Source of the DNA: Eggerthellaceae bacterium
GTDB taxonomy: Bacteria; Actinomycetota; Coriobacteriia; Coriobacteriales; Eggerthellaceae
Reading direction: 5' to 3'
DNA: 64,000 nt
Assembly: GCA_017432445.1 (NCBI GenBank)
Contig: JAFRJC010000034.1
Span: 1-64,000 of the forward strand
Position numbers and translations under genes: made by a program. Below are positions 6,916 through 46,375 of this stretch, piece by piece. The first letter of the stretch is position 1. Each line of letters starts with the position of its first letter. The notes under the pieces are model-generated. The model was not told the DNA's origin and did not search any database. It saw nothing but the letters and a program-made list of their open reading frames with translations.

Positions 6916-6920
6916 ATGAG

Positions 6921-6949: not shown

Positions 6950-6970
6950 TCGTGCATGGTCTAAAACGAG

Positions 6971-7204: not shown

Positions 7205-7241
7205 AAGTCGTCTCCGTTTCCGAGATTGCCTGCATGTCGGG

Positions 7242-8168: not shown

Positions 8169-8478
8169 AACCTGCTCCTTCTCTCGGGAAACGCATGCGT
8201 CACATCCTGCCTGAGCGCTTGGGGGAACATGTCTTCCCAGCGCATCAGCCGAGTACCATTATCGCTCAATTGAATCGATTGAGACAGGGCGCATGGCTTG
8301 TTTCGGGCATGCGGGGCATCAATCAGACAAGAAGCCCGCGATAGGGCTCTCCCTGCTGACGCGCCGAGCGCGTTTGGAAAAATAAATGCTGAGTCCCGAA
8401 CCATCTTTATAGGCAGTCGGGGTAAACTGCAACTAGCATCGGATACTCGATACGGTTTCCAAAGGGAAAGGACAAGCC

Positions 8479-8952
8479 ATGTCAGAGCAGTTCAGCGCAG
8501 AGTGGGCGAAGGGCATCATCGACGATAACGTGCAGAAAGCGCAAAGCTTCATGGACAATCCCGAGCAGATCGAAGATTTGCTCGGACAGCTGCAAGAGAA
8601 GCTCGACAGCCTTCCCAACGCAGCGACCAACGCGTTCAAGAACGTGCCGGTGATGGCGCAGATGGTCAAGAGCTATGTGACTCGAGAATACACTGCCGTG
8701 TCACCCAAGGTCGTCGCCTCTCTCGTGGCTGCGTTCGTCTACTTCGTCAAGAAGAACGACATCATTCCTGACAGCGTGCCCCTCTTCGGATACGCAGACG
8801 ACCTCGCCGTCGCGGCAGTTGCCATGGTCATCAGCGAGCCCGAGCTGAAAGCCTTTGCCGAATGGCAAGCCCAGAATGCGGCCGGCCTCAGCAAGGAAAT
8901 GACACCTGAGCCCGTTGAGGCCGTCGAGGCCGAAGCAGCTGACGTCGAGTAA
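8479..8952 (+). CDS. DUF1232 (YkvA-type) protein
   Basis: 157-aa protein with a central DUF1232 domain, recognised by the run KKNDIIPDSVPLFGYADDLA in which the Pro-Asp and Asp-Asp residues are conserved; the surrounding hydrophobic segments could insert in or lie on a membrane. The N-terminal 60 residues are amphipathic and the C-terminus is acidic (EPVEAVEAEAADVE). AAAGGACAAGCC precedes the ATG. A perfect 13-bp terminator follows at 9034. Function of the family is unknown. Confidence 0.75.
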   Translation: MSEQFSAEWAKGIIDDNVQKAQSFMDNPEQIEDLLGQLQEKLDSLPNAATNAFKNVPVMAQMVKSYVTREYTAVSPKVVASLVAAFVYFVKKNDIIPDSVPLFGYADDLAVAAVAMVISEPELKAFAEWQAQNAAGLSKEMTPEPVEAVEAEAADVE

Positions 8953-27214: not shown

Positions 27215-29215
27215 ATGGGGTTTGTGATGGGTTACAACGCGCTTTCGAAGATGCAAGAAAAGAACCGCGCCGATTACGGGATTGAAGGGTCGCCGAAGAT
27301 TCCAGAACTTCCCACTGCACCGAGGAATTTCGGACGCGAAGCGCTGGCATTTCTGCGCGAGTCATGCGAAGACCTCAAGTTCGACACTTCCGATACGCGG
27401 CGAGCGGCGCTCGAGGACCTGGACGGACGCAGTTCGGGGCAGGGAACGGTTCCTTACAACATGGAGCGTGACCTTGACCGCCTCAGCTTCGAGGCGGCTG
27501 TGGGACGTTTCCTCGAGAGCGGGTCGCGCGAGGATGCCTTCGACATCTACTACTGCTATTGCGAGATTTTCGAGCCGTTCGGCGGGGGCTACGAATCGAC
27601 GGGGCTTCTGCTCGAAATGCTCTCAGAGCACGAGACGAACGCCAGCTCGCTTCTGATGAAGCATCGCGACCATTATTCGCACAGCGTCTACGTCTTTCTC
27701 ATCGGATTGGCTATTTACCGCAACCATGCTGCCGTGCGCGCGGCGTACAACCGCAAGTACGGCCTGGAAGAAGGTCCGCAAGCCGCCTGCCATTTCCTCG
27801 AGTACTGGGGCCTCACGTCGTTGTTCCACGATATCGGCTACCCGTTCGAAATCGCGCACCAGCAGATGAAGGCCTACGTCTGCAAGCTGTTCAAGAACAA
27901 CAACGATGACTTTGGGTTTGCGCCCTACGTCTCTTATCGCAACATGGACGAGTTCGCGCTCTCGCGGCTCGGCGACCTGAACGAGCTGTACGCCTATGCA
28001 ATCACCGAGCGCCTTGCCGAGTCTTACCTCGGGCGTGTCGGGCATGAACCTTACTACCTGAATCACAAGCTTCTCGGCACGTTGCAGGACCGCGCCGTGC
28101 ACGAGAATCCCGCCGAGATGAATTACCTGTTCATGGACCACGCCTATTTCAGTGGCCTCATCGTGATGAAGACGTACCTTGACCAGCACCCCGAGATTAC
28201 GGACTTCGAGCAGCTCCCCGAAGTGCTGCTCGATAGCTTCTGTGCCATCATCTTGCATAACAGCCTGTTCAAGTTCACGATACGCATGCTCATGCGCACG
28301 CGCGAACCGCTGCGCATAGACGACGGGCAGCCGTTGTCGTATCTCCTCATGCTCTGCGACGAGCTTCAGTGTTGGGATCGTGCGTCGTACGGCAAGAGCA
28401 GCCGCGGCGGGACATATCCCTTCGATTTCGACTTGGCTTTTGAAGATGGCAACATGGCCTGGACTTATTTCTTCGATAAGACCTACGAATCCGATGTCCT
28501 GTCGGCTAAGGCATACCACGACGTGCTCACGGAGGGCTATAAGAAGAGGTCGGGAGCCGTGCGCGAAGGGCGCAGCAAGTTCGTTGACGACATCGACGAG
28601 ATCATCAGCCTCTCCGATGTGCTCCCAACGTTCGAGCCCGATGTCTCGAAGCCGGATCCGAGCGGCGCCATCCGCGCCGTCATCGAGGAGAAGCAGAAGA
28701 AGACGGGTTTGTACCTTTCCGATAGCAACTACCTGAGCCTCTATGATTTCGCGCTGGCGCTCAACGGCCGGTACTGCGGCGTTACGAATGTCGACGAGAT
28801 GACGCGCATCTTCGAGGAGAACCTGTCGCTGGAATACAAGCTTTCCAACATCGCGCAGGCGAAGGGGTTCGGGCCGCTGCTGGAGAAGATCGGCTGCTTC
28901 TACACCGATCGTCCGGTGGAATACGAACCGGTCGTCTGCTTCGAAGACGATGAGCTTGCAGCGATTGCTGAGGCTGAGCACGATCGGTGGTGCGTCGAGA
29001 AGCTGAGCTTGGGTTGGCGTTATGGTAAAGCGCACGTCGGTGCGGGGCAAGGCGGCGCCGACGACAAAGTCATGCGCGAGCGCACGCGCCTCCACCACGA
29101 CCTGGTTCCCTTTGCAGAGCTTTCGCATGCCGAGACCCTGAAAGACTCGCGGCCCATGGAAAAGATGCTCGAGCTCATACGTGTCTTCGAAGGTCTCACA
29201 ATCTACCGGATGTAG
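27215..29215 (+). CDS. HD-like domain protein with C-terminal RyR domain
   Basis: 666-aa protein (start at 27215 or the ATG at 27227). The middle has an HD-phosphohydrolase-like pattern: KHRDHYSHSVYVFL (His near 153/156) and SLFHDIGYPFEIAHQQ (His205-Asp206), so it may hydrolyse a nucleotide, though the full metal-ligand set could not be verified. The C-terminus (about residues 580-666) matches a RyR repeat: AEAEHDRWCVEKLSLGWRYG and a late GLTIYRM. Prokaryotic RyR domains are associated with nucleotide-centred conflict and signalling systems. It lies 12 bases upstream of the SLOG-like gene, probably in one operon. A GC-rich hairpin (27186-27202) sits just before the start. Confidence 0.7.
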   Translation: MGFVMGYNALSKMQEKNRADYGIEGSPKIPELPTAPRNFGREALAFLRESCEDLKFDTSDTRRAALEDLDGRSSGQGTVPYNMERDLDRLSFEAAVGRFLESGSREDAFDIYYCYCEIFEPFGGGYESTGLLLEMLSEHETNASSLLMKHRDHYSHSVYVFLIGLAIYRNHAAVRAAYNRKYGLEEGPQAACHFLEYWGLTSLFHDIGYPFEIAHQQMKAYVCKLFKNNNDDFGFAPYVSYRNMDEFALSRLGDLNELYAYAITERLAESYLGRVGHEPYYLNHKLLGTLQDRAVHENPAEMNYLFMDHAYFSGLIVMKTYLDQHPEITDFEQLPEVLLDSFCAIILHNSLFKFTIRMLMRTREPLRIDDGQPLSYLLMLCDELQCWDRASYGKSSRGGTYPFDFDLAFEDGNMAWTYFFDKTYESDVLSAKAYHDVLTEGYKKRSGAVREGRSKFVDDIDEIISLSDVLPTFEPDVSKPDPSGAIRAVIEEKQKKTGLYLSDSNYLSLYDFALALNGRYCGVTNVDEMTRIFEENLSLEYKLSNIAQAKGFGPLLEKIGCFYTDRPVEYEPVVCFEDDELAAIAEAEHDRWCVEKLSLGWRYGKAHVGAGQGGADDKVMRERTRLHHDLVPFAELSHAETLKDSRPMEKMLELIRVFEGLTIYRM

Positions 29216-29227
29216 GCAAGGCAAATC

Positions 29228-29887
29228 GTGGGCGTGCCCATCGTCATAGGCGTGACCGGCCATCGGGACCTGCGTGCGCAGGATCTGGGGCAGATACGCG
29301 CGCTTGTGCGTGCCGAGCTTCAGAAGTTGAGCGCCGCTTGCCCGCATTCGGAGCTCGTCATGTTGAACTCCATTGCCTCGGGTGCAGATTCGCTGTGCGC
29401 GCAAGAAGCCTTGGATTTGGGAATAGGGCTCGTGTGCCCCCTTCCTCTCGAACTCGACGATTACCGTAGGGATTTTTCCGGCGAGGAACTCGAGGCCTTC
29501 GAGAGCTTGCTCGAGCGAGCCGACGAGGTGTTCGTGGCGCCGAGCACCGAGCCCGAGAAGCCGGGACGCGATTATCGGTATCGGCAGGCTGGGATTTACG
29601 TGGCGACGCACTGCCATGTGCTGCTCGCGCTATGGGATGGCACGCCGTGGAAACCGGACGGCTGCGGTGCGGCAGAAGCGGTGGGTTTCATGCTCGATGG
29701 CGGCTCTTTCGGCGCGCCTCCCTCCGATGCGGCGCGTGACGGTGCCGTCATCCAAATCAGCGTGCCGCGGGCTTCGAAAAACCAGGAGATTCCTATAGCC
29801 GTGCACCTGTTGGAAGAGCATCCGGGATGCCTCAAGGACCTGCTGGAACAGACGGATTCCCTAAACGCGGATTTCGAGCTACCTTAA
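29228..29887 (+). CDS. SLOG-like Rossmann nucleotide-sensor protein
   Basis: 219 aa from a GTG start. The N-terminus VIGVTGHRDL, the segment SIASGADSLCAQEALDLG, ADEVFVAPSTEP and ATHCHVLLALWDG follow the pattern of SLOG/LOG-type Rossmann folds, which bind or process nucleotide-derived ligands in prokaryotic conflict systems (family knowledge from comparative genomics). The gene begins 12 bases after the HD-RyR gene, so the two products probably act together. It has no effector domain of its own, suggesting a sensor or ligand-handling role. No terminator was found after it; 190 non-coding bases precede the next gene. Confidence 0.65.
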   Translation: MGVPIVIGVTGHRDLRAQDLGQIRALVRAELQKLSAACPHSELVMLNSIASGADSLCAQEALDLGIGLVCPLPLELDDYRRDFSGEELEAFESLLERADEVFVAPSTEPEKPGRDYRYRQAGIYVATHCHVLLALWDGTPWKPDGCGAAEAVGFMLDGGSFGAPPSDAARDGAVIQISVPRASKNQEIPIAVHLLEEHPGCLKDLLEQTDSLNADFELP

Positions 29888-30078: not shown

Positions 30079-30558
30079 ATGGCAACAGCAGAGTCGTTGC
30101 GTCAAGAGTTCATGGACTACATGGATTCCAAGGACATCAAGTATACGGTTTTCGATGAGGAGGACAACATCGTTTACCTCGCCTTCGGCGGTGATAAGGA
30201 GACGTTCGTTCTGGTCGACTTCGACGAGGACGGCAACAACGCCGATAGCGTGCACTTCTTGTCGAGCAATTTTGCAAAAGCGGAGAAGTCCAAGATTCCC
30301 CTGGCGCTCGTCAGGCTCAACGAGATCAACCGCCAGTATCGCTGGGTCAAGTTCTACATGTCTGACGATGGAGAGATCTCGGCCGATTGCGACGCCGTTA
30401 TCTCACCGGGAACCGTGGGGGCCGAGTGCGTGCAGATCTCGATGCGCATGTCCAACATCATCGAAGATGCGCTCGACAAGTTGGCCGGTGCGGCTGAGAT
30501 CAACGAGGAAGCCAAGAGGATGTTCGACGTCATCGCTTTGATGAAGCGCTTGGGTTAA
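30079..30558 (+). CDS. YbjN-like protein
   Basis: 159-aa protein resembling the YbjN / type III secretion chaperone-like fold: DYMDSKDIKYTVFDEEDNIVY is a typical N-terminal beta pattern, followed by FVLVDFDEDGNN and a helical C-terminus (MRMSNIIEDALDKLAG). Such proteins usually act as small binding partners or regulators. AAAGGAGACTTGC precedes the ATG. It ends just before a strong terminator at 30586. Whether it belongs functionally to the neighbouring SLOG/RyR pair is unknown. Confidence 0.65.
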   Translation: MATAESLRQEFMDYMDSKDIKYTVFDEEDNIVYLAFGGDKETFVLVDFDEDGNNADSVHFLSSNFAKAEKSKIPLALVRLNEINRQYRWVKFYMSDDGEISADCDAVISPGTVGAECVQISMRMSNIIEDALDKLAGAAEINEEAKRMFDVIALMKRLG

Positions 30559-30703: not shown

Positions 30704-30877
30704 TCAGCTGTTGACGGTGCGCTCGCAGGCGGCAAGGCGCGCGAGGAAATCCTCGGTCGGAGGCGCGGCGGGCACGTCGGGCGTTTCGGCGGACGCGTCC
30801 GCCGAGGCCGGGGAATCCTGTCCTTGGTACATGAGGTCGGCAAGGGCCTTCAGCAAATCATCACTCGGCTCGCTCAT
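30704..30877 (-). CDS. 57-aa acidic protein with a DDLL-helix motif
   Basis: Small gene overlapping the last 17 bases of the AAA-peptidase gene in another frame. AAGGAG lies six bases before its ATG, an excellent ribosome binding site. The product starts MSEPSDDLLKALADLMYQGQ and ends TEDFLARLAACERTVNS. The segment DDLLKALADLMYQGQDSP closely resembles the repeat of the acidic protein at 34402-36132 (for example EDLLASIAALMGQDSPDPEP). Translational coupling to the AAA-peptidase and a shared short helix suggest a docking or adaptor peptide for this operon. Function is inferred only. Confidence 0.6.
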   Translation of the reverse strand: MSEPSDDLLKALADLMYQGQDSPASADASAETPDVPAAPPTEDFLARLAACERTVNS

Positions 30878-33800
30878 CGGCGTCTCCTTCCCGAAGCGTC
30901 TTCCACAGCTCCATGATTCTCTCGCCTGACATGGTCGACTCGTCGAGCAACGCCTCGACGAGTTTGTCGTAGATTGGCTTCTGCTCCATGATCACTTCCT
31001 TCGCGCGTTCGAAGGAGCGGGCCATCACGCCATCGATCTGCTCGAGCACGGCAGGGGGCAAGTCATGGAGGGCCACCGTCTGCTTGGCCCTGCGCCCGTC
31101 GTCGAGGTACTGGACGAAGCCTGCAGGCGACATGCCGTAGGTGGCGACGTAGCGGCTCGCGATGCGCGTGGCCTGCTGCAGGTCAGAGGAATTGCCGCAC
31201 GAGAAAGCCCCGAAGTGTATTTGCTCTGCGGCCATGCCCCCCATGAGTTCGATGACCTGATTCTCGAGATCGTCGGCAGTGGGAAGAGCGGCAACCTGCG
31301 CCTTGTGCTGCACGTAGCCCAAAGCGCCCGTCCCTTCCTGTTCGATGGTCACGACCACGATGTCGGTGCCGCCCGTCAAGGCGAGCCGGCAGATTGCATG
31401 CCCCATCTCGTGGAGCGCAACGCGCCTGCGCGCCTCTTCACCCGATACGTCGGAAGGCTCGTAGACGGGCATCGAGACGAGCTTGCAGATATCCGCAATC
31501 GAGGGCACGTCTTCAGGTTCCAGAACCGAGAATTCAAGCGCGTCGTCGCGGTTGGCATGCTTGGCAATGACTTCTTGCAGCAGCTTGTCGACAAAGCGGC
31601 CGTTGCCGTAATTCTCGGTTCCGTGGAAGTAGCGCAGCACGTCGCGGGCTGCTTCCGCAGTCCCTTCGGCAAGGCTCAACCCGGCTTTTCTCACCTTCAG
31701 CTCGAAGATGTCGAGCAGCTCGTCGACCTTGTAGTCCTCGAAGTGGAAGTTGTATCCCACGCGGCTTGCCAGACCTGGGTTGCGGTCCAAGAACTCGCGC
31801 ATCTCCTGCTTGTAGCCGGCGAACATGACGACAAGCTCTCCCTTGTGGTCTTCCATGGCCTTCACGATGTTGGATATGATCTCGTTGCCATCGCGCGTGT
31901 AGAGCAACGCATAAGCCTCGTCGATGAACAAGACGCCACCCATGGCTGCCTTGAGGTGCTTCTGGACGGCGGTCTCGCTCGAGCGGAACTGGAAGGCCGA
32001 AAGGTCGTTGGCTTCCACCTCGATGAACTTGTTCGTGGGAACGGCGCCGACGTTGTACAGGATGCGCGCGATGATGCGTGCGACCGTGGTCTTGCCGGTG
32101 CCTGGGTTCCCGGTGAACACCATGTGCAGGTTCGAGCTGGGGAGCTTGAGCCCGGCCTTGAGGGCGCGCTCCCTGAACTCGACGACGCGCTCGAACTCGC
32201 ATACCTTCGCCTTCAGGTCCTCCATGCCGATAAGGTCGGCAAGCAGGTCGTCGGCACTGCGGGGCGACCAGTCGGTGATGTCGAAGAGCTCCTGTTTGGT
32301 GGGGATGTCCTCGGATGCCAGCGTGAAATCTTCTTCCGCATCCTCGTCGAGCGCGCTGTGGGCAGCGTGCTTGACGATAGCCTTCTGGAGCACTTCCATG
32401 ACGAAGCGCCCATTGCCGAAGTTCTTGAAGCGCCGGTAGTAGTCGAACAACCCCTTGAGTTTCGGCATGATCTCGGTTTCGTCATAGGTGAAGCCGGCCT
32501 TTTTGGCGTTAATAGAGAAGATCTGCAACAGCTCGGGCGTCGAATAGTCTTCGAAGCGGAATGTGTAGCCGATGCGGGAAGCCATGCCCGAGTTGGCCTC
32601 CATGAACTCGTTCATCTCCTTCTCGTAACCTGCGAAGATCACGATAAGGTCGTCTTTGTGGTCTTCCATGGCCTTGACGAGCTCGGCGATGCTCTCACGC
32701 CCGAAATCGCCGGCGGCTCCCTCGCCGCTGGCCGTGAGCGCATATGCTTCGTCGATGAACAGGATGCCGCCGAGGGCGCTGCGAATCACTTCCGACGTCT
32801 TCTTGTCGGTCTGGCCGACGTAGCCGGCCACGAGGTCCTTGCTCGTCACCTCGATGCACTTGTTCTGTCGGATGATTCCGATTTTATAGAGCATGGTCGA
32901 GATGATGCGGGCGATCATCGTCTTGCCGGTACCCGGACTTCCCAGAAACAGCATGTGGTTGTTGGCCGAGGGCATTTCGCGATGGGCTGCGATTGCCTCC
33001 TGGCGGAAGACCGAGTACTTCTCGAGTTGTTTGATCGTATTCTTGACCTGGGTCATACCGACGACGCCGTCGAGCATCTCGTCGAGCGAGGAGCTCTGGT
33101 AGCGGCTTTTTGGCAGGCGCAGTTCGCCGAGCGCGTTGGCATGCTTGGCGAGGAAGTCGGCGAGTTCGGCGCCTTGGAAGGGCATGCAGTCACGGTTGAA
33201 CCCGACGAACTGGACGAACTTCCGCTCGAATTCCGGATCGGCCAACGCGGCCTTGCGCAAAGGCGCATTGAGGTTCTCCAGATAGATGCGGTACAGCTCG
33301 CGAAGCGGCATGCTATCGAGGTTCATCCGATGCTGGTCGAAGGTTAAAAGCAGCTTGCTGTCGAGGTCGATGAAGCCCCGCAAATCGGCCTCGTTCCCGA
33401 CGAGGATGACGTAGCGGTCGTCGACGATGTGGCTTAAGCGCTCCGCCACGTAGTTCTTCTGGGCGTCGCCGAACATCGACGAGCTGTCCACGAAATCCTT
33501 CACGCGGTCGAGCACGTAGAGCGTGCGTGGCTCTAGGTTCTCGTCACCAGTGGTCCTGAAACGGTTGTGGCTCGGGTCAGCCTTGTCGACGAGCTCCATC
33601 AGGTGCATCTTCTTGACAGACCCCTCGTCGATCTTGTCCATTTTCACGAGCGTTGTGGTCAAGTCGTCGAGGAACATCGTCCGGTAGGAGTCGTCTTCCA
33701 CCACGAGCATGCCCGCGAAGTCGTTTTCGTGAAGGTCGAGCAGGAGGTTGAGCGCAATTTCCGACGAGCCAAGATGAGATTCCCATTTTTCCCTGAACGT

Positions 33801-34250
33801 GCGGGTGTCGGCTTCGATGGAGGCGATGTGTGCCTTGCAGTCGTCGTAGACGGGGATAGGCGCGCTTTCGCTGCCGTCGATCTGCGCTGTCCACGATGCT
33901 TGGGTCAGCTTCGCAAAGCATGCCGCCATGGCTGCCGGGCAGGCGTCGTATCCGCAAGTCCTGTGGGAGCAACGCAAGTCGTCATGGCCTTCCCGCATGA
34001 TGACGCCGCTTGCGCGCGGCATGAGCTCGGCGTTGAGCAGGGCGCAGCGGGAATTTCGCAGATCTCGGCTTATGACGCGCTCCTTGACGTCGCGCAGCCG
34101 GTATGCGAGGAAACAGTCAGATAGCGCTGCGTCGTCGGTTTCGATTAGCTCCACAGCTTGGTTATCGTGAAGTTCGCAGGCGACCCTCACGGCCCGTGCA
34201 TCTTTCTTGGAAGCTCTTATGAGCAGTTCTTCGAGCTTTGATTGTGCCAT
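30861..34250 (-). CDS. Tandem CbxX-type AAA+ ATPase fused to an FtsH-like M41 peptidase
   Basis: 1129 aa. The N-terminal ~390 residues are not recognised (Cys/His-containing RCSHRTCGYDACP near 95). Then come two CbbX/SpoVK-like AAA+ modules: Walker A GSPGTGKTMIARII (near 435) with Walker B GGILFIDEAYAL, and GNPGTGKTTVARII (near 713) with GGVLFIDEAYALL. The C-terminus is an M41 metallopeptidase: HEMGH at 947-951 and the third-ligand motif NSSDLQQATRIASRYVATYGMS, as in FtsH. Unlike FtsH it has no membrane segments and the AAA type is different, so it is probably a soluble unfoldase-protease. It lies downstream of the acidic repeat protein and is coupled to the 57-aa gene. Confidence 0.88.
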   Translation of the reverse strand: MAQSKLEELLIRASKKDARAVRVACELHDNQAVELIETDDAALSDCFLAYRLRDVKERVISRDLRNSRCALLNAELMPRASGVIMREGHDDLRCSHRTCGYDACPAAMAACFAKLTQASWTAQIDGSESAPIPVYDDCKAHIASIEADTRTFREKWESHLGSSEIALNLLLDLHENDFAGMLVVEDDSYRTMFLDDLTTTLVKMDKIDEGSVKKMHLMELVDKADPSHNRFRTTGDENLEPRTLYVLDRVKDFVDSSSMFGDAQKNYVAERLSHIVDDRYVILVGNEADLRGFIDLDSKLLLTFDQHRMNLDSMPLRELYRIYLENLNAPLRKAALADPEFERKFVQFVGFNRDCMPFQGAELADFLAKHANALGELRLPKSRYQSSSLDEMLDGVVGMTQVKNTIKQLEKYSVFRQEAIAAHREMPSANNHMLFLGSPGTGKTMIARIISTMLYKIGIIRQNKCIEVTSKDLVAGYVGQTDKKTSEVIRSALGGILFIDEAYALTASGEGAAGDFGRESIAELVKAMEDHKDDLIVIFAGYEKEMNEFMEANSGMASRIGYTFRFEDYSTPELLQIFSINAKKAGFTYDETEIMPKLKGLFDYYRRFKNFGNGRFVMEVLQKAIVKHAAHSALDEDAEEDFTLASEDIPTKQELFDITDWSPRSADDLLADLIGMEDLKAKVCEFERVVEFRERALKAGLKLPSSNLHMVFTGNPGTGKTTVARIIARILYNVGAVPTNKFIEVEANDLSAFQFRSSETAVQKHLKAAMGGVLFIDEAYALLYTRDGNEIISNIVKAMEDHKGELVVMFAGYKQEMREFLDRNPGLASRVGYNFHFEDYKVDELLDIFELKVRKAGLSLAEGTAEAARDVLRYFHGTENYGNGRFVDKLLQEVIAKHANRDDALEFSVLEPEDVPSIADICKLVSMPVYEPSDVSGEEARRRVALHEMGHAICRLALTGGTDIVVVTIEQEGTGALGYVQHKAQVAALPTADDLENQVIELMGGMAAEQIHFGAFSCGNSSDLQQATRIASRYVATYGMSPAGFVQYLDDGRRAKQTVALHDLPPAVLEQIDGVMARSFERAKEVIMEQKPIYDKLVEALLDESTMSGERIMELWKTLREGDADERAE

Positions 34251-34401: not shown

Positions 34402-36132
34402 CTATCGGAACGGTTCGAACGTGATGCGCTCGGCGACGCCGGGTAGCATCTTCATGCCCTGGATGATGCGGTCGAACTTCTGCTTGTCGGCTGGTTGGCA
34501 ATTCGACATGTAGTCTGCGAGTCGGAAGAGGGCGCCATCTGCGATGAACGAAAGTTGCTCGGCGAAATCGTCTTGGGAAAGTCCCGATGAGCGGGCTTTT
34601 CCGAGAACGTGCATGATCGTGATGGTACCGTAGTCGTCCATGATCTGGGCTTGCTCCTCGTAGGACAGGCCATAGGCGTCTTCGTTTGCGTTGCGCAAGA
34701 TGACGTCCATCAAGGCCATGGCGGGTGCGTAGTCGCCCTTGTCTGCTTCGGCTGAAACGCGGCTGTAGTACTTGAGGGACTCGCTGCGCTGGAAATCGGC
34801 GTAGCGCGGATGCTCGGCGCGGTATTCGCGTAGGTCATCCGCCATGCTGCCGAACGCCTCGCCATACAGCTCGACGCCCTTGTCGGCATACTCGAGCGCC
34901 TCGTCGTAGGAGGTTGCGGTCATGGCCGCTATCTGCAGTGATTCCATGTAGGCGTTCGGCTGCCCCTCAACCATGTGCTCTTGCGCGTATGCGCGGAACG
35001 GCTCGCCGCATTCCAGGCTCTCGAGCGCGTAGTTGGCGGCATCGTAGCCGCTGCCAATTTGATGCAGCACGAAGGAAGCCGCATGATGGTAGGCCATGCC
35101 CTTCAACGCAGCGCTTTCAGCGCAGAAGGAACAAGCCTGCTGGTACGCGGCATAGGCATCAGCCAGGGCGCCCCGGTCGAAGTACCGTTCGCTTTCGGCG
35201 CACAGAGAATTGAACTTCTCCTCGAGGCCGGGGTCTATTTCGGGCGTTGCGGGCACTTCGTCCTCGTTCTGGTCGCTTGCGTACATGCTCCCGCCCATGA
35301 GGGCGGCGATGCTGGAAAGCAGATCGTCGCCGTCGCCACCGTTATCGGCGGGCGCGGGTTCGTCTGTCGGCTCCGGGTCAGAGGAGTCTTGCCCCATGAG
35401 CGCGGCGATGGCGCTGAACGGGTTGTCATCAGATGCGGGTTCCGGCTCTGGTTCCGGCTCGGGCTCGGGCTCTGCTGGGCCTGGTCCAATGAGGCTGGAA
35501 ATGCTTGAGAGCAAGTCGTCGGTGTTGTCGTCTTCGGCGGGCGTGGGCTCATCAGCCGGCTCCGGGTCAGGGGAGTCTTGTCCCATGAGTGCGGCGATGC
35601 TGGCGAGCAGGTCCTCGTCTGGCCCGCTTTCGGATGTCGCTTTGGGCTCTGGCTCTGGTTCCGGCTCGGTATCTTGTCCCTGCGTCTCTTCGGCATACTG
35701 TCTGATTCTATCCTTCAAATCTGGATTGAGCGCGCCCATGAGGCTCACGACGCCGTCGATGGCGTCGTTGACGTCCTGCTCGTAGGTGGACTCGGACTCG
35801 TCATCTTTCTCTTCCGGCTCGGGTTTCTCGCCCATGAGCAAGGAAAGGGCTTTGGCCAAGTCGGCCTCCCCATCAGAGGAGGAATCGGCGCTTGTTCCTC
35901 TGTCGGCTGTCGTTGTTTTCGCCGGAGAATCCAAACCGGATTCCTTGCCGTCCCATATAGCCGCAATCGCGTCGAGGAGTTCCTGGTCGGGTTGAGATCC
36001 TCCGCCGGAAGAACCTCGCGTCAACTTGTCCGCGCCAAGCGGGCTTCGCCCCGATCCGCTGCCTCTCGGCGCCGGCTTCTCGGGCTCGGGCTCAGGTTTC
36101 GAAGATCTTCTGAATCGGTCGAAGAATCCCAT
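34402..36132 (-). CDS. Acidic protein with repeated DDLLxSIAALMG helices and helical C-terminal domain
   Basis: 576 aa, no known family recognised. The N-terminus MGFFDRFRR is short and amphipathic and may touch the membrane. Residues ~50-300 are disordered and rich in Glu/Pro/Asp, with seven copies of a short hydrophobic helix: QELLDAIAAIWDG, ADLAKALSLLMGE, NDAIDGVVSLMGA, EDLLASIAALMGQDS, DDLLSSISSLIGP, NPFSAIAALMGQDS and DDLLSSIAALMGGS. Residues ~300-576 look helical and TPR-like (ADAYAAYQQACSFCAES; SYDEALEYADKGVELYG). First gene of the minus-strand operon with the AAA-M41 protease, so it may be a scaffold, adaptor or substrate. The DNA repeats are coding, not a CRISPR array. Confidence 0.75.
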   Translation of the reverse strand: MGFFDRFRRSSKPEPEPEKPAPRGSGSGRSPLGADKLTRGSSGGGSQPDQELLDAIAAIWDGKESGLDSPAKTTTADRGTSADSSSDGEADLAKALSLLMGEKPEPEEKDDESESTYEQDVNDAIDGVVSLMGALNPDLKDRIRQYAEETQGQDTEPEPEPEPKATSESGPDEDLLASIAALMGQDSPDPEPADEPTPAEDDNTDDLLSSISSLIGPGPAEPEPEPEPEPEPASDDNPFSAIAALMGQDSSDPEPTDEPAPADNGGDGDDLLSSIAALMGGSMYASDQNEDEVPATPEIDPGLEEKFNSLCAESERYFDRGALADAYAAYQQACSFCAESAALKGMAYHHAASFVLHQIGSGYDAANYALESLECGEPFRAYAQEHMVEGQPNAYMESLQIAAMTATSYDEALEYADKGVELYGEAFGSMADDLREYRAEHPRYADFQRSESLKYYSRVSAEADKGDYAPAMALMDVILRNANEDAYGLSYEEQAQIMDDYGTITIMHVLGKARSSGLSQDDFAEQLSFIADGALFRLADYMSNCQPADKQKFDRIIQGMKMLPGVAERITFEPFR

Positions 36133-36245
36133 AATGCTCCTCCTTCATGCGTCGCAGCACGGTTTTCGTGCAACGTTCGTACGGTCGAAGTTCACATCGT
36201 CTAGTCTATACCATCAGGGGGAGAGCCGCGCTTTTGCCGCGTGAT

Positions 36246-36273
36246 TTGCCTGGTATATTGTTATTGATAGTAT
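36246..36273 (+). promoter_or_regulatory. Candidate promoter of the kinase gene
   Basis: TTGCCT (36246-36251) and TAGTAT (36268-36273) are spaced by 16 bases in an AT-richer patch of the 200-base region between the divergent acidic-protein and kinase genes. This would give a leader of about 55 bases before the GTG at 36333. Confidence 0.35.
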
Positions 36274-36332
36274 TTAAGGTTGAGGATCGGCTTGGAACTG
36301 TTCTCTCTGCGTCTTTTCAAGAGGAGGATGTC

Positions 36333-39300
36333 GTGGACGACTTGACGGGCAGCATTGATTTCTCGGTTCTGAAAGAAGACGTTTTCGAGGGCATGACCAT
36401 GGTGGGCGCCGCGTTCGCGGGGCTGGACGGCGGCATGCAGGAAGCCATTACCGATGAGCGCATCGAGTTTGGCGACAAAGTCCTGGAAACCTACGAGGTC
36501 GTTTCGGATGCCATCTCGGGCGGCATGGGCAGCGTTTGGCGCGTTCACCATGGGAACTGGGGCATTGACCTGGCCATGAAGCGTCCCCATCCGCGTTTCT
36601 TCGCCGAGGCCAGCGCGCATCGCAAGGCGGCGTTTCTCGATGAGTGCGAGCATTGGATCGAGATGGGCCTCCATCCCAACATCGTATCGTGCTACTACGT
36701 GCGCGCAGTGGGTGGTGTGCCCACCGTCTTCTCGGAATGGATGGATCGGGGCAGCCTCAAGGACGTGATTGCAAACGGCGCCCTCTACGATGGAGAAGAA
36801 GGCGACGTGCAGGAGCGCATCCTCGACATCGCCATCCAAGCTGCCCGCGGGCTTGCGTTTTCCCAGGAGAGGGACTTGCTCCACCAGGATGTGAAGCCGG
36901 GTAACCTTCTGGTTACGGGTGATTGGGAGGTTAAGGTTGCCGATTTCGGCTTGGCGAAGGCAGTGAGCAAGCTGGGGGATGAGGACGCCGAAGGGGGCGC
37001 AGACGCGGACCCGTGGGCGGACGCCTTTTCCAGCGCGCTGTCCAGCCTTGGCATGTACGCCGAGGCGCGTGCGGCGTTCCCAACGGGCTATACCCTAGCG
37101 TATTGTCCTCAGGAGCAGGCAGATGGCGCGCCTGCGCAGGCTTGGATGGACGTGTACGCCTGGGCGCTCGTAGTGCTGGAGATGTATGCTGGCGAGCGCC
37201 TGTGGGACGTCGGCTCCGAAGCGGCCGAGTGCTTCGACGACATCGCCGCGAAGCTGAACTGGAAGGCCCCCGAACAGGTTATCTCGTTACTGCAAGACTG
37301 CCTGGTGGAGCGCGGTGCGATAACGTTCGACGAAGTGACGAGGCGCTGTGAGGAAGCGTACCGACAGATGACGGGAAAGCGTTATCCGCGCCCCGATGCC
37401 CGTGGTGTCTTGAGCTCGGCCTTGAGCCTGAGCAACTACGCTTTGAGCTTCCTCGATTTAGGCAAGGAGGAGCGGGCCTTGGAGCTGTGGGATGAAGCTG
37501 TCAAGGTTGACAGCGCATGTGTGCCCGCTCTTTACAACCGCACGCTCTTCGGGTATCGCACGGGTCTTTTGGACGACGTTGCCGCCGTCGCGGCTCTGAG
37601 GACGCTTGCGTATTCCGGGGACAACGACCCCGAAGCCTTCTGGGCTCTGGCCAGGATCCAGCTCGAGTGCCGCGATGCCGACCTGCCGAAAACCCTTGAC
37701 AAGATCGAGGAGCTCTTCCCCGATGCGGACGCAGGCGAACTTGATTCTATGCGGGAGGCGGCTGAGCGCAACTTCCCGAAGCAGGTATACCATTTCAACA
37801 ATCCAAATTCCGGGCCGGTGGACGTGTCGCCAGATGGCACCCACCTGCTCATCCACGACAGCGACTGCGGCAGAGAGACCGAGAGCGTCATCTTTTGCGA
37901 TATCGAGGAGCGCGAGGAGATTTCGCGGATGATTCGAGAGCCTGATGTAGAGCCGCATGCTGAGGTCAGGGCAATGCTCTCGAAGGATAACCAGTTTGCG
38001 TTCGGCATATATGCCCAAGACCCGTTCGTGTACAAATGGCGCACCTCCGATGGCGAGCAAATCGTCGCCATGGTCATGCGGAAGATTCCCGGCGAGCAGA
38101 TCTGCGCCTATGACGTGGACGCTGCTGGCGAGTGGGCCATTTTGGGTTCGACAAGCGGGCGCGTGGGATTCTTGCGCACGGAAAAGCAGGAGACAGCGTC
38201 CTTTACTACCGTTCAAGGGCATTTCGGAGTGTGCATAACGGACGACGGGCGGAAAGGGCTCGTCTCCTGTCGGGAAGAGGATCGGATTGAGATTTGCAAC
38301 CGCGAGGACGGAAGCCTGGTCAAGATTTCCGTGCCCAGCCCCGTCTTCGCGCATTTCGCCCTTGATGACACCTGTGTGTTATCGATTTCCGGGGACGCAT
38401 CGCCGATGATTCGCCTGCATGACGTGGTGAGCGGCGAGTGCCGCTACGAGGTGCCTTTCCCGCGTTTGGATGAATTCATGGGGCGTCAAGGGCAGTTCTC
38501 GATGAGCATGGACGGACGCCGGGTGCTGCTCAGGGGGAACAAAGGCTACCTGCTCTTCGACGTCGCAGCCCATCGGTGGCTCATCACGCTGACCGAAAAC
38601 CAGATTGGCGAGCAGACGAACCTGACGTTCAAGGCGTTTTTACCGGGTGCAGGCGATCGCGTGTACCTGACGTCGTTCCTCTCGAGCCTTCGGGGTATCG
38701 AGCTGCCTTCGTTCACCGAGGACAGCCCGTGGAACCTGAGCGTCATCCGCACGGCGAAGGAGAGCTTCGAGGAAGAGGAGGCGTTCGCGGGCTTCGTCGT
38801 CTGGGCGGAGGACGCGCTGGATTCGGGCGACGTGCCGACTGCGCTTGAATGCGCCGCGAAGGCGGCAACCGTCGGGGAGGGGCGGTTCCGTTCCGACGAG
38901 GCCTACACGTCGCTGGTCAGGAGCCTGATGTCCCGATGTGCGATTGCGGCGGTGGGAACTCCGCTGCTTCTCGACCGCACGCCGGTGTTCACGGCGCCTA
39001 TCGCGGTTTTGTCACCCAGTCCCGACGGCGCGCTGATCGCGGCCATTTCGCAGGATGGCGAGCTTGCCGTCGTCGATGCATCGAGCGGTTCGGCGGTCTA
39101 TCGGGATGTCGCAAGGCGGCATGCGCACCTGAAGAAGCCCCTCTGGTTGGGGACAACGCTGTACTCGCTGGTCGTAGCGGGCCTCGGCGATATGCCCGAC
39201 GGCTACGTGAACAGGCCGTTCCGAATTAGCGATAGCTCGGGTCAAACTGGCCGCATGGGCATCTCGTATCGCGGCGTCGACTTGGGGGGTTCAGCATGCG

Positions 39301-40013
39301 GGCAAATTTTCGCATTCGATTTGGGCGACTTGGCAGGTGGAGAGGAAGCCCTTGCCGAAGACCCCGCCAAGCCCGCGCTCGGCGCTCAGGATGTGACGGA
39401 TTACCAGGTGATGCGAGGCGGCGCGGAGTTCCTCTGCCGTAAGCTCGACGGCTCGGTGAGCCGTATTGCTGTGGAAGGTGCCGAAAAGGTTTTGATGGGA
39501 CCCGACGAGGAATATCAGATCACCGGGTCGGCGCTTTCGCGCAACGAACGCGTCGCCGTTTTGAGCGTTGGCGATATCATGAACTTCCAGAAGGCCGAGA
39601 CCTGTTCCTCCAAGGCGGTGTTCTTCGACGCGACCAGCGGGAAGATCCTGTTCAAGACAGTTGATGCGAGCATCACTTCGGCTTGCGCCTTCACCGATGA
39701 CGGGCGTTACGCCATCGTTGGAAATGACGTCTTCGACTTCCACGGCGGTGCGCAAGGCAGCATTCCGATTGACGGCGACGTCCATGTCGCGTTCTTGGAA
39801 AACCGCTACGCTGTCGGATTGGAGGCTAACGGCGCGCTTTCAGTGTGCGAACTGTCATCGAGGCAGCAGGTCCTTTCCGCAGAAGTGGGCGACGGCCCTA
39901 CGGCGATAGCGTGCAGTCCCGACGGGGCCATGCTGTATGTGGGCAATTCTCAAGGACAGCTTGCCACTTGGCTTTGGGACCACGAGCTCGAGGTCGCTCA
40001 GGTATTCGATTAG
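36333..40013 (+). CDS. Ser/Thr protein kinase with TPR-like and beta-propeller (WD40-like) regions
   Basis: The start is set at the GTG at 36333 (1226 aa) because AGGAGG lies just upstream; the frame is open to 36147. The kinase domain (about residues 45-340) has GGMGSVWRV (glycine loop), LAMKRP (ATP lysine), LLHQDVKPGNLLV (catalytic loop, HQD in place of HRD) and VADFGLAKA (DFG). A TPR-like stretch follows (LDLGKEERALELWDEAVKV). The remaining ~750 residues have repeated propeller-type blades (VSPDGTHLLIHD; SPSPDGALIAAISQDGELAVVD; CSPDGAMLYVGNSQGQLATW). No transmembrane segment is evident. It is divergent from the acidic-protein/AAA operon and could phosphorylate its members. Confidence 0.88.
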   Translation: MDDLTGSIDFSVLKEDVFEGMTMVGAAFAGLDGGMQEAITDERIEFGDKVLETYEVVSDAISGGMGSVWRVHHGNWGIDLAMKRPHPRFFAEASAHRKAAFLDECEHWIEMGLHPNIVSCYYVRAVGGVPTVFSEWMDRGSLKDVIANGALYDGEEGDVQERILDIAIQAARGLAFSQERDLLHQDVKPGNLLVTGDWEVKVADFGLAKAVSKLGDEDAEGGADADPWADAFSSALSSLGMYAEARAAFPTGYTLAYCPQEQADGAPAQAWMDVYAWALVVLEMYAGERLWDVGSEAAECFDDIAAKLNWKAPEQVISLLQDCLVERGAITFDEVTRRCEEAYRQMTGKRYPRPDARGVLSSALSLSNYALSFLDLGKEERALELWDEAVKVDSACVPALYNRTLFGYRTGLLDDVAAVAALRTLAYSGDNDPEAFWALARIQLECRDADLPKTLDKIEELFPDADAGELDSMREAAERNFPKQVYHFNNPNSGPVDVSPDGTHLLIHDSDCGRETESVIFCDIEEREEISRMIREPDVEPHAEVRAMLSKDNQFAFGIYAQDPFVYKWRTSDGEQIVAMVMRKIPGEQICAYDVDAAGEWAILGSTSGRVGFLRTEKQETASFTTVQGHFGVCITDDGRKGLVSCREEDRIEICNREDGSLVKISVPSPVFAHFALDDTCVLSISGDASPMIRLHDVVSGECRYEVPFPRLDEFMGRQGQFSMSMDGRRVLLRGNKGYLLFDVAAHRWLITLTENQIGEQTNLTFKAFLPGAGDRVYLTSFLSSLRGIELPSFTEDSPWNLSVIRTAKESFEEEEAFAGFVVWAEDALDSGDVPTALECAAKAATVGEGRFRSDEAYTSLVRSLMSRCAIAAVGTPLLLDRTPVFTAPIAVLSPSPDGALIAAISQDGELAVVDASSGSAVYRDVARRHAHLKKPLWLGTTLYSLVVAGLGDMPDGYVNRPFRISDSSGQTGRMGISYRGVDLGGSACGQIFAFDLGDLAGGEEALAEDPAKPALGAQDVTDYQVMRGGAEFLCRKLDGSVSRIAVEGAEKVLMGPDEEYQITGSALSRNERVAVLSVGDIMNFQKAETCSSKAVFFDATSGKILFKTVDASITSACAFTDDGRYAIVGNDVFDFHGGAQGSIPIDGDVHVAFLENRYAVGLEANGALSVCELSSRQQVLSAEVGDGPTAIACSPDGAMLYVGNSQGQLATWLWDHELEVAQVFD

Positions 40014-40118: not shown

Positions 40119-41408
40119 CTATTCCAGGAGTGCATCGTAGGCGCTTTTCACCATGTCAAGCAAGGCTTGCTGGCGCTCGAAATCCTCTCGCCAGGAGACC
40201 ATGAGCTTCTCGACGGTCGTCATGATGCGCCTTTTCTCGATAGGGTTGCCTTCGAAGCGAGCGCGCTCCAGAAGCGAGAGGTAGTACTCTTGTGCGAGTT
40301 TGCTGCACAGAACGGCGTCGTCAGGAAACGAGCTCTTGTAGCCGAAATAGAAACGCTCGCGTTCCTTCACGGATAGCCCCAGGTATTCGACGGCCTTGGC
40401 CTCGTCGCCGAGTTCACGATGGGCTTTTGCCTGATTGCGATACTGGTAGCTGCGCATCAAACTCGCGAACAAGTCGTTTTCCGGATGATCTGCCACGTCT
40501 TCCTCAATGGCTGCAAGCGTCTTCTCGCCCCAGGAAAGCGATTCCTTCCAGTAGTAGTCGCGCTCAGATTGATCGAGTCCCTCGGGGGCGATGACGTTGC
40601 ACAGGCTTATGGCGTCGAAGCGCAGTATCTTTGCCCAATTGGCCAAACTTGGATCGTCGAACTCCTTTTCGAACTCCTTCGACAAAAACGTGGTGATCTC
40701 GAAATAGTCTTCAATCTGGAGGCGGTTTTTCAAATCGTCGGTCTTGACGAAGATGGACGCGATGACGCAGGCCTCCTCGATGGCTGCCCCAAGCATTCCG
40801 GCGATGGTTCCGGTGTAGGAAAGCCCTTGGAACATGAGCGGCATTTCGTTGTGATAATAGGCGGACTTCAGGCTGAAGAGCACCATTTGAGCCATCTCGA
40901 AATCAGAGAACTTTTTTCGGATGGCGTGCTGCTTGGCGAGAGTCTTGATTTCCTTCCACTGTGACATGATCGCCGTCTTGTCCAGCGAGCGCGATTCCAC
41001 TTCGAAGCGCTCGACGATTTTCGCAGCAGTTTCGCTTTCGGAGAGGCCGTCACTTTGAATTGGGATGACCCATGAACCCATGAGGTCGCTCGGCAGCTCT
41101 CGCTCGCCAGTGTCGAGCAGGAAGGCGTACACATTCTTCGAGGCCAAGCGGGCTATCATGTAGCCCCATTCGAACATGAGGTTCTCGCTGAACTTTGCCG
41201 GCTCGCCAGTGGACGTATCGTTTTTCTTCTGCGCGAGGATGATTGCGTGGGCGCAGGTGTCCATCTGAGAGAGAACTTGCGTGCCGATGAACATGTCGTG
41301 CGGCGTGCCGCCTCCGACGACCGCACGAAACCCCTTTTCCTCGAGCAGGCTCGCCACGCCCTTGGCAACCCCGAGATTCCCGCTCCATGCGATAAAGACG
41401 CTCTCCAC
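40119..41408 (-). CDS. TIR-like nucleotide-binding domain protein
   Basis: 429 aa from the GTG at 41408 (GGGGCGAGCGACT upstream); an ATG at 41450 would add 14 residues. The N-terminal ~140 residues fit the predicted TIR-like nucleotide-binding family: VFIAWSGNLGVAKGVASLL, VLSQMDTCAHAIILAQKK and ENLMFEWGYMIARL, where the Glu of FEWGY would be the catalytic residue for NAD cleavage. The remaining ~290 residues are helical and unrecognised (with a TPR-like AKAHRELGDEAKAVEYLG), possibly a sensor. It ends convergently with the kinase gene and may be an effector of the same system. Confidence 0.72.
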   Translation of the reverse strand: MESVFIAWSGNLGVAKGVASLLEEKGFRAVVGGGTPHDMFIGTQVLSQMDTCAHAIILAQKKNDTSTGEPAKFSENLMFEWGYMIARLASKNVYAFLLDTGERELPSDLMGSWVIPIQSDGLSESETAAKIVERFEVESRSLDKTAIMSQWKEIKTLAKQHAIRKKFSDFEMAQMVLFSLKSAYYHNEMPLMFQGLSYTGTIAGMLGAAIEEACVIASIFVKTDDLKNRLQIEDYFEITTFLSKEFEKEFDDPSLANWAKILRFDAISLCNVIAPEGLDQSERDYYWKESLSWGEKTLAAIEEDVADHPENDLFASLMRSYQYRNQAKAHRELGDEAKAVEYLGLSVKERERFYFGYKSSFPDDAVLCSKLAQEYYLSLLERARFEGNPIEKRRIMTTVEKLMVSWREDFERQQALLDMVKSAYDALLE

Positions 41409-41466
41409 AGTCGCTCGCCCCTTTCTGGTAGACGGCTGCGATTCTATCATGACTCAATGTCGTGCT

Positions 41467-43965: not shown

Positions 43966-44053
43966 AACCCATGAATAGTTCCTACTGCACCAATGGGGTG
44001 CAATCGTGGTTTACTATGGAAGTCGAAGGCGTGTCAACAGATGGGGGCAAGAG

Positions 44054-46375
44054 ATGCGGTTCGAGTACAAGACCAGGGAGATGGATGATCCGCGGGGAAG
44101 GCCGAAGGTGTTCTTCTCATGCCACCCGTCCGATTTTTCGGAAGCGTTCGACCTGGTGGTGGAAGACGTGCTCGAGCAGGCCAACTGCGTCATCTGGTAC
44201 GATGCGGACTTGGCTCTCGGGAGCGAAGGCGCTGGTGGTGACGGCAAAGCATCCCATGACACTGGCGTTTTGGACGCGGCGCGCGAAGACGGCGTCCCCG
44301 ATTTCGATGTTGACGGCGATGCCGCCGAAGATCTTCTCAGCGTGCTCAACGACATGCAGCTGCTCGTGTTCGCCGTGACGTCGCGTTTTCTGGAGGAGCC
44401 TAACCGCGCGCGCGATGTGGAGTTACCATATGCCCTCGAGAGGCACATTCCCGTGCTGCCCATCATGCTCGAAAACGGTTTGGAATTCGAGTTCAACGAG
44501 AAGTGCGCTCCCATACAGGTGGTAAACCGCTACGTGAGCGATTCGACGGCCACGCCCTACACGGAGGTGCTGCGTGCGTTCCTGTCGTCAGTGCTCGTGG
44601 GTGACGAGCTTGCGGCTCTGGTGCGGGATGCCTTCGACGCGTACGTGTTCTTGAGTTACCGAAAGAAGAACCGCTGTCACGCGCAGCGCCTCATGCACAT
44701 CATTCACGAGAACAAGCGATTCCGCGATATTGCAATCTGGTATGACGAGTACCTCGTGCCCGGCGAAGGTTTCAACGAGGCGATCGAGGCTGCTTTCGCG
44801 AAGAGCTCGCTGTTTGCGCTCGCGGTGACGCCGCAGCTTCTCGAAAAGGGCAACTACGTCCAAGAAATCGAATATCCGATGGCGCACAAGCGCAGCGATG
44901 AAGATCGGGACCTGGAAATAGTGCCGGTTGAGATGTACGAACCGGGAAACGAGGCCTCGCGCACGAACCTCGATGAATTGGCAAGCGATTACAAGGACAT
45001 ACCCAAGGTCCAAGACGAGTACAAACGCGACGAACTCCATGCGGAGCTCGACGCAGCGCTCGATCGCCTTGGCGTTACGGCAAGCGAAGGTTCCACGAGG
45101 CACCTCTTCTTCATCGGTCTGGCGTATCTGTGCGGCATAGACGTTGAGCCGGACTACGAGCGCGCGCTCGACCTCTTGACGCAGGCAGCCACTGATGAGA
45201 AAGATCCATGCATCGATGCAACGGAGAAGCTCGCAGATATGTATCAGCGAGGCGAAGGCGTGGGGCGCGACATGGACGAGGCCATCCGCTGGCAGTGGTT
45301 GGTGGTAAAGCAGTACACCGAAGCGTACTGGAAGCACCGCGATCCCGACGAGCACAAGGGTTACGGCACGAAGCGCTTCAAAGCGCTCGTGCGCGTGGCG
45401 GACATGCTGTGCGAGGTTGGCGATACCGGTTCAGCGATGTCGGCCCTCGGAGAGGCTTTCGAGTTCTTGCGCGAGCTAGCCATCGAGGTGGGCTTGCGTG
45501 AGATGGAGCGCGATAAGGCCGTCGTGCTGAACCGGCTCGGCGATTTGAACCGGGCGCACGGGGATTTCGACCGAGCCCTCACGTGCTATGGGGAAGCAAG
45601 GCATATATACGGGAAGCTCGCGAGCCAATTGGAAACGGTGCGCGCACGGCGTGACTTGTCGATTAGCTTCGAGAGGCTTGGGGATGTGAAGCGCAGCCTG
45701 GATGACCCCACAGGAGCTGAGAATTGCTATCGGGAGGCGGGCAGAATACGCGAGGATTTGACCGGCTCCGATTTGGAGCCGCGCAACTATCGCGATCTTT
45801 CGGTGATCTACACCAAACTCGGGAGCGTCCGCAAGGATGGGGGCGATTTCCGCGGTGCGTCGCGCTTCTATAACCAGGCGCTCGAAATGGACCGAAAGCT
45901 GATGGAGGAGCTGCGTACGCCGCAGGCGAAAGACGACTACGGCGTCAGCCTAATCAAGGTGGGCGATGTGGCAAGGAAGCTCGGCAACTACGCCGAGGCG
46001 GTTGAGAAATACACCGAAGCCGAGCTTCTCTACGCTGGCCTGGTGAAAAAAGTGGGCTCCCTACGCTATCGCAAGAACCATGCCAGGTGTCTTAGCAAGC
46101 TTGCGAGCGCCTGCAAGCATTCGGGGGATGTGGATAAGGCGGCGCGCTATTACGAAAAGGCTGATGAGGAGTTTTTCGAGCTGCTCTCCTCAGCGACTGG
46201 CAACGCGACCGATATGGCCCACGACCTTGCGGTGGCATATTTTAACCATGCGCAGTTTGGCCGAAATCGGGAACTGGCCCAGAAAGCGCATGCAATCTGG
46301 GAGGATTTGAGCAGCAGCGACAAGCGTTACGAACACTATCTGGACAAAGCCGACAGATTGCTGAAAAAGCTGTAG
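44054..46375 (+). CDS. Tandem TIR-domain protein with Sel1/TPR repeats
   Basis: 773 aa from the ATG at 44054 (GGGGGCAAGAG upstream). The first TIR-like domain (~10-190) has PKVFFSCHPSDFSEAFDLV, VIWYDADLA and ARDVELPYALERHIPVLPIML. The second (~200-350) has DAYVFLSYRKKNRCHAQRLM, IAIWYDEYLVPGEGFNEAIE and YVQEIEYPMAH, where the Glu residues are candidates for NADase catalysis. A Sel1-like part (GLAYLCGIDVEPDYERALDLL) and six or more TPR helices follow (NRLGDLNRAHGDFDRALTCYGEA; YTKLGSVRKDGGDFRGASRFY). TIR-TPR proteins act in prokaryotic immunity or signalling; the first TIR seems more divergent and may be regulatory. Confidence 0.85.
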   Translation: MRFEYKTREMDDPRGRPKVFFSCHPSDFSEAFDLVVEDVLEQANCVIWYDADLALGSEGAGGDGKASHDTGVLDAAREDGVPDFDVDGDAAEDLLSVLNDMQLLVFAVTSRFLEEPNRARDVELPYALERHIPVLPIMLENGLEFEFNEKCAPIQVVNRYVSDSTATPYTEVLRAFLSSVLVGDELAALVRDAFDAYVFLSYRKKNRCHAQRLMHIIHENKRFRDIAIWYDEYLVPGEGFNEAIEAAFAKSSLFALAVTPQLLEKGNYVQEIEYPMAHKRSDEDRDLEIVPVEMYEPGNEASRTNLDELASDYKDIPKVQDEYKRDELHAELDAALDRLGVTASEGSTRHLFFIGLAYLCGIDVEPDYERALDLLTQAATDEKDPCIDATEKLADMYQRGEGVGRDMDEAIRWQWLVVKQYTEAYWKHRDPDEHKGYGTKRFKALVRVADMLCEVGDTGSAMSALGEAFEFLRELAIEVGLREMERDKAVVLNRLGDLNRAHGDFDRALTCYGEARHIYGKLASQLETVRARRDLSISFERLGDVKRSLDDPTGAENCYREAGRIREDLTGSDLEPRNYRDLSVIYTKLGSVRKDGGDFRGASRFYNQALEMDRKLMEELRTPQAKDDYGVSLIKVGDVARKLGNYAEAVEKYTEAELLYAGLVKKVGSLRYRKNHARCLSKLASACKHSGDVDKAARYYEKADEEFFELLSSATGNATDMAHDLAVAYFNHAQFGRNRELAQKAHAIWEDLSSSDKRYEHYLDKADRLLKKL

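Follow-up and report, generated by a model that had tools for sequence, protein, structure and literature searches.

Whether a protein that carries chaperone-type motors and an FtsH-type zinc peptidase on one soluble chain can work as a protease, and what would bring it its substrates, is the question raised by a single gene of an Eggerthellaceae bacterium (Coriobacteriia). The gene lies in a stretch of 64,000 nucleotides, hereafter the window (GenBank assembly GCA_017432445.1, contig JAFRJC010000034.1, positions 1 to 64,000), and a first-pass annotation had read it as two CbxX-type AAA+ modules fused to an M41 peptidase. Its product, of 1129 aa, combines an M41 zinc peptidase with two AAA+ modules of the CbbX/SpoVK type, both intact, and has no membrane segment. 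From sequence, structural models and analogy, we somewhat favour the reading that it is a cytosolic, self-contained ATP-dependent protease, which in Coriobacteriia would be fed by a YbjN-family protein acting as adaptor. The gene and its modules are laid out as follows.

30861..34250, minus strand: fusion protease gene, ATG to stop, 1129 aa; N1, pseudo-AAA, AAA, AAA and M41
33810..34250, minus strand (aa 1-147): N1, Cys-rich N-terminal module with CSxxxCxxxxCP (alignments, model)
33075..33809, minus strand (aa 148-392): N2, degenerate AAA module of CbbX type, lacking both Walker A and Walker B (hhalign, AlphaFold2 model, Foldseek, VIA)
32271..33074, minus strand (aa 393-660): AAA module 1, active-type CbbX/SpoVK, pore-loop-like YVGQT at 477
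31476..32255, minus strand (aa 666-925): AAA module 2, active-type CbbX/SpoVK, no YVG at the pore-loop-1 position
30903..31445, minus strand (aa 936-1116): Peptidase M41 domain, HEMGH 947-951, third ligand D1023 (Pfam, PDB match to FtsH)

CbbX-type motors joined to an M41 peptidase

The tandem CbxX-type modules of the first-pass annotation were recovered by Pfam as two AAA matches (best stretch 433-553) and two AAA_lid_6 matches. The NCBIfam models for SpoVK (400 bits), EccA (336) and CbbX (321) matched both modules, all under their equivalog cut-offs; the SpoVK equivalog TIGR02881, for instance, scored 399.6 bits where 422.95 are required. The clade of these proteins is defined by a CbxX-type AAA domain with AAA_lid_6, a GY at sensor-1, an Asn before the arginine finger and a second Arg as sensor-2 (PMC10659427). 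The corresponding marks are present in both modules (FAGY at 539 and 810, NxGxxSR at 553 and 824, GNGRF at 612 and 882), next to the nucleotide-binding motifs GSPGTGKT 437, GILFIDEAY 495, GNPGTGKT 714 and GVLFIDEAY 772.

The peptidase had likewise been correctly recognised, with HEMGH at 947 and NSSDLQQAT at 1020 in their places. Peptidase_M41 matched residues 938-1115 with an E-value of 8.6e-31 and a score of 107.7 bits, where the cut-off is 29.9, and both HExxH and the third-ligand Asp fall within this domain, the residues H947, E948, H951 and D1023 being invariant. The nearest solved structure of the M41 domain is FtsH (PDB sequence match 8.3e-20). Judged by its sequence, the protein belongs to peptidase family M41 but is not an FtsH, because it has no membrane anchor and remains below the equivalog score: the FtsH family model TIGR01241 reached 118.6 bits against an equivalog cut-off of 600 and reported the M41 part (933-1111) alone, in agreement with the annotated difference between the two motors. 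The annotation as a soluble protein also held, in that the highest 19-residue Kyte-Doolittle mean is 1.35, compared with 2.27 in the one FtsH used as control (L022), and by this hydropathy measure alone none of 13 fusion members has a membrane segment. A separate, normal FtsH is encoded on a different contig of the source genome. The top PDB matches of a full-length model (predicted local distance difference test, pLDDT, 80) were FtsH protease chains, with CbbX next.

A degenerate third AAA module at the N-terminus

The approximately 390 N-terminal residues do lie outside the two Pfam AAA modules, as annotated, but they are not the single domain without known relatives that had been assumed: they divide into the Cys-rich N1 (1-147) and the degenerate AAA module N2 (148-392). 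Structure prediction and profile search of the region place a CbbX-type module at 148-392. Profile alignment by hhalign of N2 with AAA module 1 gave an E-value of 1.3e-5 over 225 collinear columns, at a modest probability of 59%, and in two Clostridia copies a P-loop remnant, GSKDTGK, survives at the equivalent place of the alignment. The AlphaFold2 model of residues 1-400 (mean pLDDT 82, predicted template modelling score, pTM, 0.75) retrieved CbbX crystal structures as all four top Foldseek matches (E 1.5e-6 to 3.3e-6). VIA also ranked CbbX best (3syk, Z 13.4, root-mean-square deviation 5.0, 241 aligned residues within 134-386), the next non-CbbX structure having a Z of 10.3. Because of the profile alignment, the P-loop remnant and the fold matches, residues 148-392 are classed, on model and sequence grounds, as a third, degenerate CbbX-type AAA module. 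N1 is modelled with low confidence at residues 41-100 and is missing from some homologues, although CSxxxCxxxxCP is conserved where N1 is present; one Clostridia copy (L109) carries N1 twice. That this Cys-rich module binds zinc is our guess.

Distribution, variation and descent

The full-length architecture is repeated in 12 other loci at 35-61% identity. The fusion gene is therefore not an assembly artefact, and chance, a frameshift or an assembly join as the source of the fusion is ruled out by these aligned loci. A search with the M41 domain through 396 genomes of the class returned, among ordinary FtsH matches, about 10 true relatives besides the window copy, mostly in open reading frames of more than 1000 aa; the occurrence is thus patchy, at about 11 of the 396 genomes. 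An M41-alignment scan of 84,980 species genomes found at least 16 named loci, in Atopobiaceae, Olsenella, Enterorhabdus, Adlercreutzia faecimuris, other Coriobacteriia and four metagenome-assembled genomes of Clostridia including Ruminococcus and Mageeibacillus. These counts are lower bounds, since the scan was pattern-based and left out a divergent Coriobacteriia member (L045) as well as most of the members found in a sample of 391 Clostridia genomes, where seven matches were obtained, the query's own genome among them. Among 296 genomes across Actinomycetota outside the class we saw no clear further fusion, the matches having FtsH-level scores and FtsH-like frame lengths with the exception of one 1380-aa frame (G649). 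A scan of viral contigs gave no relative of the fusion protein and PHROG matches were only generic AAA or FtsH-like, so that a phage origin was rejected.

Conservation is strongest where catalysis would require it. In a full-length alignment of 13 rows the M41 ligands and Walker A do not vary, and the only departure in Walker B is an Asp-to-Asn change in module 1 of L058; in both AAA modules Walker A, Walker B, the GY sensor-1, the N...SR arginine-finger region and FGNGRF are kept in essentially all members. Every member scanned has HExxH, and the third-ligand Asp is the same across the aligned Coriobacteriia and Clostridia, which settles the question of lost catalytic residues that the first-pass annotation had left as a possible refutation. 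The frameshifted copy of genome G357 (L042/L054) was excluded from the full-length alignments. Its reading frame is broken in at least one place, with the M41 part and YbjN still open, and this could be an assembly error or decay.

The number of motors varies around a constant core. Coriobacteriia have the pseudo-module, two active modules and M41, whereas the six Clostridia copies that we inspected have the pseudo-module followed by one (n = 4), two (n = 1) or three (n = 1) active modules, each then with an M41 domain with HExxH. The largest, L114 (4848-10265), encodes 1805 aa with the pseudo-module, three live CbxX modules and M41. One to three active motors with N2 and M41 always retained fit the expectation for a modular unfoldase-protease.

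In a tree of M41 domains a single branch with support 100/99 divides those of the fusion proteins from those of FtsH. The tree is unrooted, and this sequence result is therefore compatible with one origin of the fusion M41 domains without proving it. No model in Pfam, NCBIfam, PADLOC or PHROG covers the whole architecture, in line with the earlier expectation that it is not a catalogued protease family, and a literature search for CbxX-M41 fusions found nothing relevant. The architecture is a real family, apparently undescribed in the literature, of which prior automatic annotation is possible.

A YbjN-family neighbour and the proposed mechanism

The first-pass annotation had proposed that the N-terminal region may select substrates. 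This region is not one substrate domain, and selection may lie instead with a neighbouring gene of the YbjN family, which had gone without mention.

30079..30558, plus strand: YbjN/TY-chaperone-like gene, 159 aa, candidate adaptor; convergent with and 306 bp from the fusion gene; PF10722

The 159-aa product matches PF10722 at 8.7e-9 (36.1 bits, cut-off 22) and, weakly, TY-Chap1 (PF22551). A YbjN gene stands 60-480 bp from the fusion gene in 12 of the 13 testable Coriobacteriia loci, L056 not being testable for adjacency as its contig ends. The linkage is found in four arrangements (downstream or upstream of the fusion gene, each on the same or the opposite strand). YbjN itself is infrequent, with a match at E<=1e-8 in just 29 of the 396 genomes of the class; of 11 carrier genomes, 10 have the neighbour of the fusion gene as their sole or highest-ranking YbjN match. 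YbjN proteins fold like type III secretion chaperones (PMC3575483, PMC5398634) and are classed among peptide-binding chaperones (PMC9503650).

Two loci show further arrangements. In L051, two YbjN genes (1944-2480 and 10808-11353) flank the fusion gene and an RyR-type gene on either side. In L088 (genome G382), which has no fusion, YbjN lies beside a plain single CbxX/SpoVK-type ATPase without M41 (6509-8739); a link between YbjN and CbxX without the protease thus exists in one genome.

Under the reading we favour, the anatomy of the protein points to protease activity and the gene linkage to an adaptor role of YbjN. By analogy with other AAA+ proteases the chain would form a hexamer, in which modules 1 and 2 would make two stacked active CbbX/SpoVK-type rings that draw substrate through the pore, and the threaded substrate would reach the M41 zinc-peptidase domains, arranged as a further ring at the C-terminal end. 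The entry platform would consist of the Cys-rich N1 and of N2, the inactive CbbX-like module. In Coriobacteriia, the YbjN/TY-chaperone would bind unfolded or tagged peptides and hand them over to this platform, a delivery that we liken to that by the SspB adaptor for ClpX.

Several observations weigh against this reading. L045, although a Coriobacteriia member, has no YbjN neighbour, and the Clostridia members examined show no detectable YbjN match, so that the adaptor is not universal. The characterised clade members CbbX, SpoVK and EccA are remodelling chaperones, and the motor may therefore present substrates for limited cleavage and not for processive degradation. Finally, the full-length single-chain model has a pTM of 0.50.

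A possible third component is encoded upstream of the fusion gene and in the same direction.

34402..36132, minus strand: 576-aa gene, C-terminal region without family match; system membership uncertain

Its product contains six DLLxSIxALMG-like amphipathic motifs with acidic, Pro-rich linkers between them. Like motifs are found in the C-terminal tails of YbjN proteins, such as EELLSMLKQLMDQ in L048, and in L050 and L053 they also begin the product of a small gene that separates the fusion gene from YbjN. When a profile of the window repeats was compared with 339 proteins, a YbjN tail ranked first and the small gene second, an outcome of about 0.002 by chance in a comparison that is after-the-fact and helix-biased. 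We regard the motif common to the 576-aa gene, the YbjN tails and the small gene as a lead only; it is possibly a docking or degron motif.

Genomic surroundings and alternative explanations

The wider neighbourhood of the window copy suggests other roles, for which the following genes are relevant.

27215..29215, plus strand: RyR-domain protein, 666 aa, possible accessory (PF02026, 2.3e-5, 25 bits, slightly below cut-off)
29228-29887, plus strand: SLOG-like protein (our own reading, no Pfam match), starting 12 bp after the RyR gene
36147-40013, plus strand: Ser/Thr kinase with TPR and beta-propeller similarity and with similarity to mad6 and PD-T4-6
40119-41450, minus strand: CAP12/Pycsar-type TIR protein
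44006-46375, plus strand: TIR-Sel1-TPR protein

CobQ and a Fur-like gene lie about 21 kb apart in the window, whereas in a close relative (G364) a single 865-aa gene stands between them and the variable region of the window is absent from the CobQ-Fur junction. The variable region holds the fusion gene, YbjN, the RyR protein, the SLOG-like protein, the kinase/beta-propeller protein, the CAP12-type TIR and the TIR-TPR protein, and the RyR and SLOG-like pair looks like an operon for nucleotide-ligand sensing. Because the window copy sits in this region together with TIR, kinase and RyR genes, a defence role for it is possible. The fusion protein would then be a defence or conflict component, a restrained protease which, once a phage infects or a nucleotide signal arrives, triggers immunity by degrading one particular protein of the host or the phage, in concert with the TIR, kinase, RyR and SLOG-like neighbours. 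The patchy occurrence of the family is in keeping with this, as are the surroundings of other loci. RyR-like EHxRW proteins also occur close to the fusion gene in L049, L051, L052 and L054, that is by five loci with the window, with Pfam-level RyR matches in three carrier genomes only. A WYL-domain regulator lies directly upstream of the fusion gene, overlapping or abutting it, in L050 and L055; L049 has a NUDIX protein with a weak DUF4062 match nearby; and L052 and L057 have mutually related neighbours with weak nucleoside-deoxyribosyltransferase similarity. All these neighbours, however, vary by locus and YbjN is the sole constant one, several Clostridia copies lie amid housekeeping genes with conserved neighbours, and no PADLOC model spans the whole protein, the top matches being generic AAA proteins such as IetA. 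We hold defence to be unlikely, though it is the most probable of the alternatives. At three of the Clostridia loci (L058, L060, L109), the fusion gene has a divergent neighbour whose product carries a zinc-ribbon-like sequence at its N-terminus.

Less probable still is a dedicated maturation protease, in which the CbbX-type motors would remodel one client, YbjN would be its secretion-type chaperone and limited cleavage by M41 would activate it. Such a role would suit both the characterised SpoVK/CbbX/EccA members, which are narrow with one client each (PMC10659427), and the resemblance of YbjN proteins to client-specific secretion chaperones, but, YbjN apart, no one conserved gene that could be the client accompanies the fusion gene at every locus. 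A decayed or non-proteolytic fusion, with M41 aiding assembly and no use of the peptidase, is very improbable: AAA+ proteins often have pseudo-modules, of which N2 is one, but HExxH and the third-ligand Asp are retained throughout, as described above.

We thus retain the cytosolic, YbjN-fed protease as our preferred reading. In a broader and more tentative form, which we would not back at even odds, it makes the fusion proteins of Coriobacteriia and Clostridia a previously undescribed family of cytosolic AAA+ proteases, distinct from Clp, Lon, HslUV, membrane FtsH and the proteasome. Such a family would combine M41 with a dead CbbX-type motor and between one and three live ones, would be fed in Coriobacteriia by YbjN via short amphipathic motifs, and would in some lineages have been recruited to nucleotide-signalled immunity.

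Comparison with known systems

The closest relatives of the peptidase are the FtsH, m-AAA and i-AAA proteases, in which, too, the AAA motor is followed directly by a C-terminal M41 domain that carries HExxH and the third-ligand Asp; among PDB entries FtsH also matches best, in sequence as in fold. Unlike FtsH, the fusion protein has no membrane segment, its motor is of the CbbX/SpoVK clade with one to three active copies and one dead, and its M41 domain lies on the far side of the 100/99 branch. A soluble, multi-ring member would thereby be added to M41, a family known mainly as membrane-bound.

The IetAS anti-phage system is a partnership of an AAA protein and a protease. The similarity to IetA is a weak match at the AAA level, and here the protease is M41 and part of a single chain. 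In ClpXP, the small substrate-binding adaptor SspB feeds the AAA+ protease by means of a tethering tail. The logic proposed for YbjN and the fusion protein is the same, as an analogy only and without homology.

In the FtsH-containing vWA-MoxR ternary conflict systems (Kaur et al, 2020; PMC7159879) the first of two AAA domains is likewise dead and a conflict context has been proposed, but both domains there are of the FtsH type. The Pfam-scanned neighbours in the window include no evident vWA or MoxR gene, the neighbours at other loci having been partly scanned. The TY-chaperone/YbjN proteins (PMC9503650), which the adjacent gene resembles through PF10722 and weakly PF22551, are placed by the cited studies in ADP-ribose and secretion contexts and not with an AAA+ protease. 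The fusion protein offers this poorly understood family a concrete partner and a testable role.

By profile and fold, all three modules, the two active ones as well as N2, resemble the CbbX/SpoVK/EccA chaperones, with the difference that the motors are here fused to M41. A 2023 preprint described the SpoVK/CbbX/EccA clade as having no peptidase association (PMC10659427), to which the CbxX-M41 family is a counterexample. It suggests that this clade, so far read as single-client chaperones, can drive protein degradation, and it offers a system in which unfolding by the motor is assayable via proteolysis. In some gut bacteria, then, a predicted cytosolic protein-degrading machine combines an FtsH-type zinc protease with unfolding motors of a type that had been described in chaperones only.

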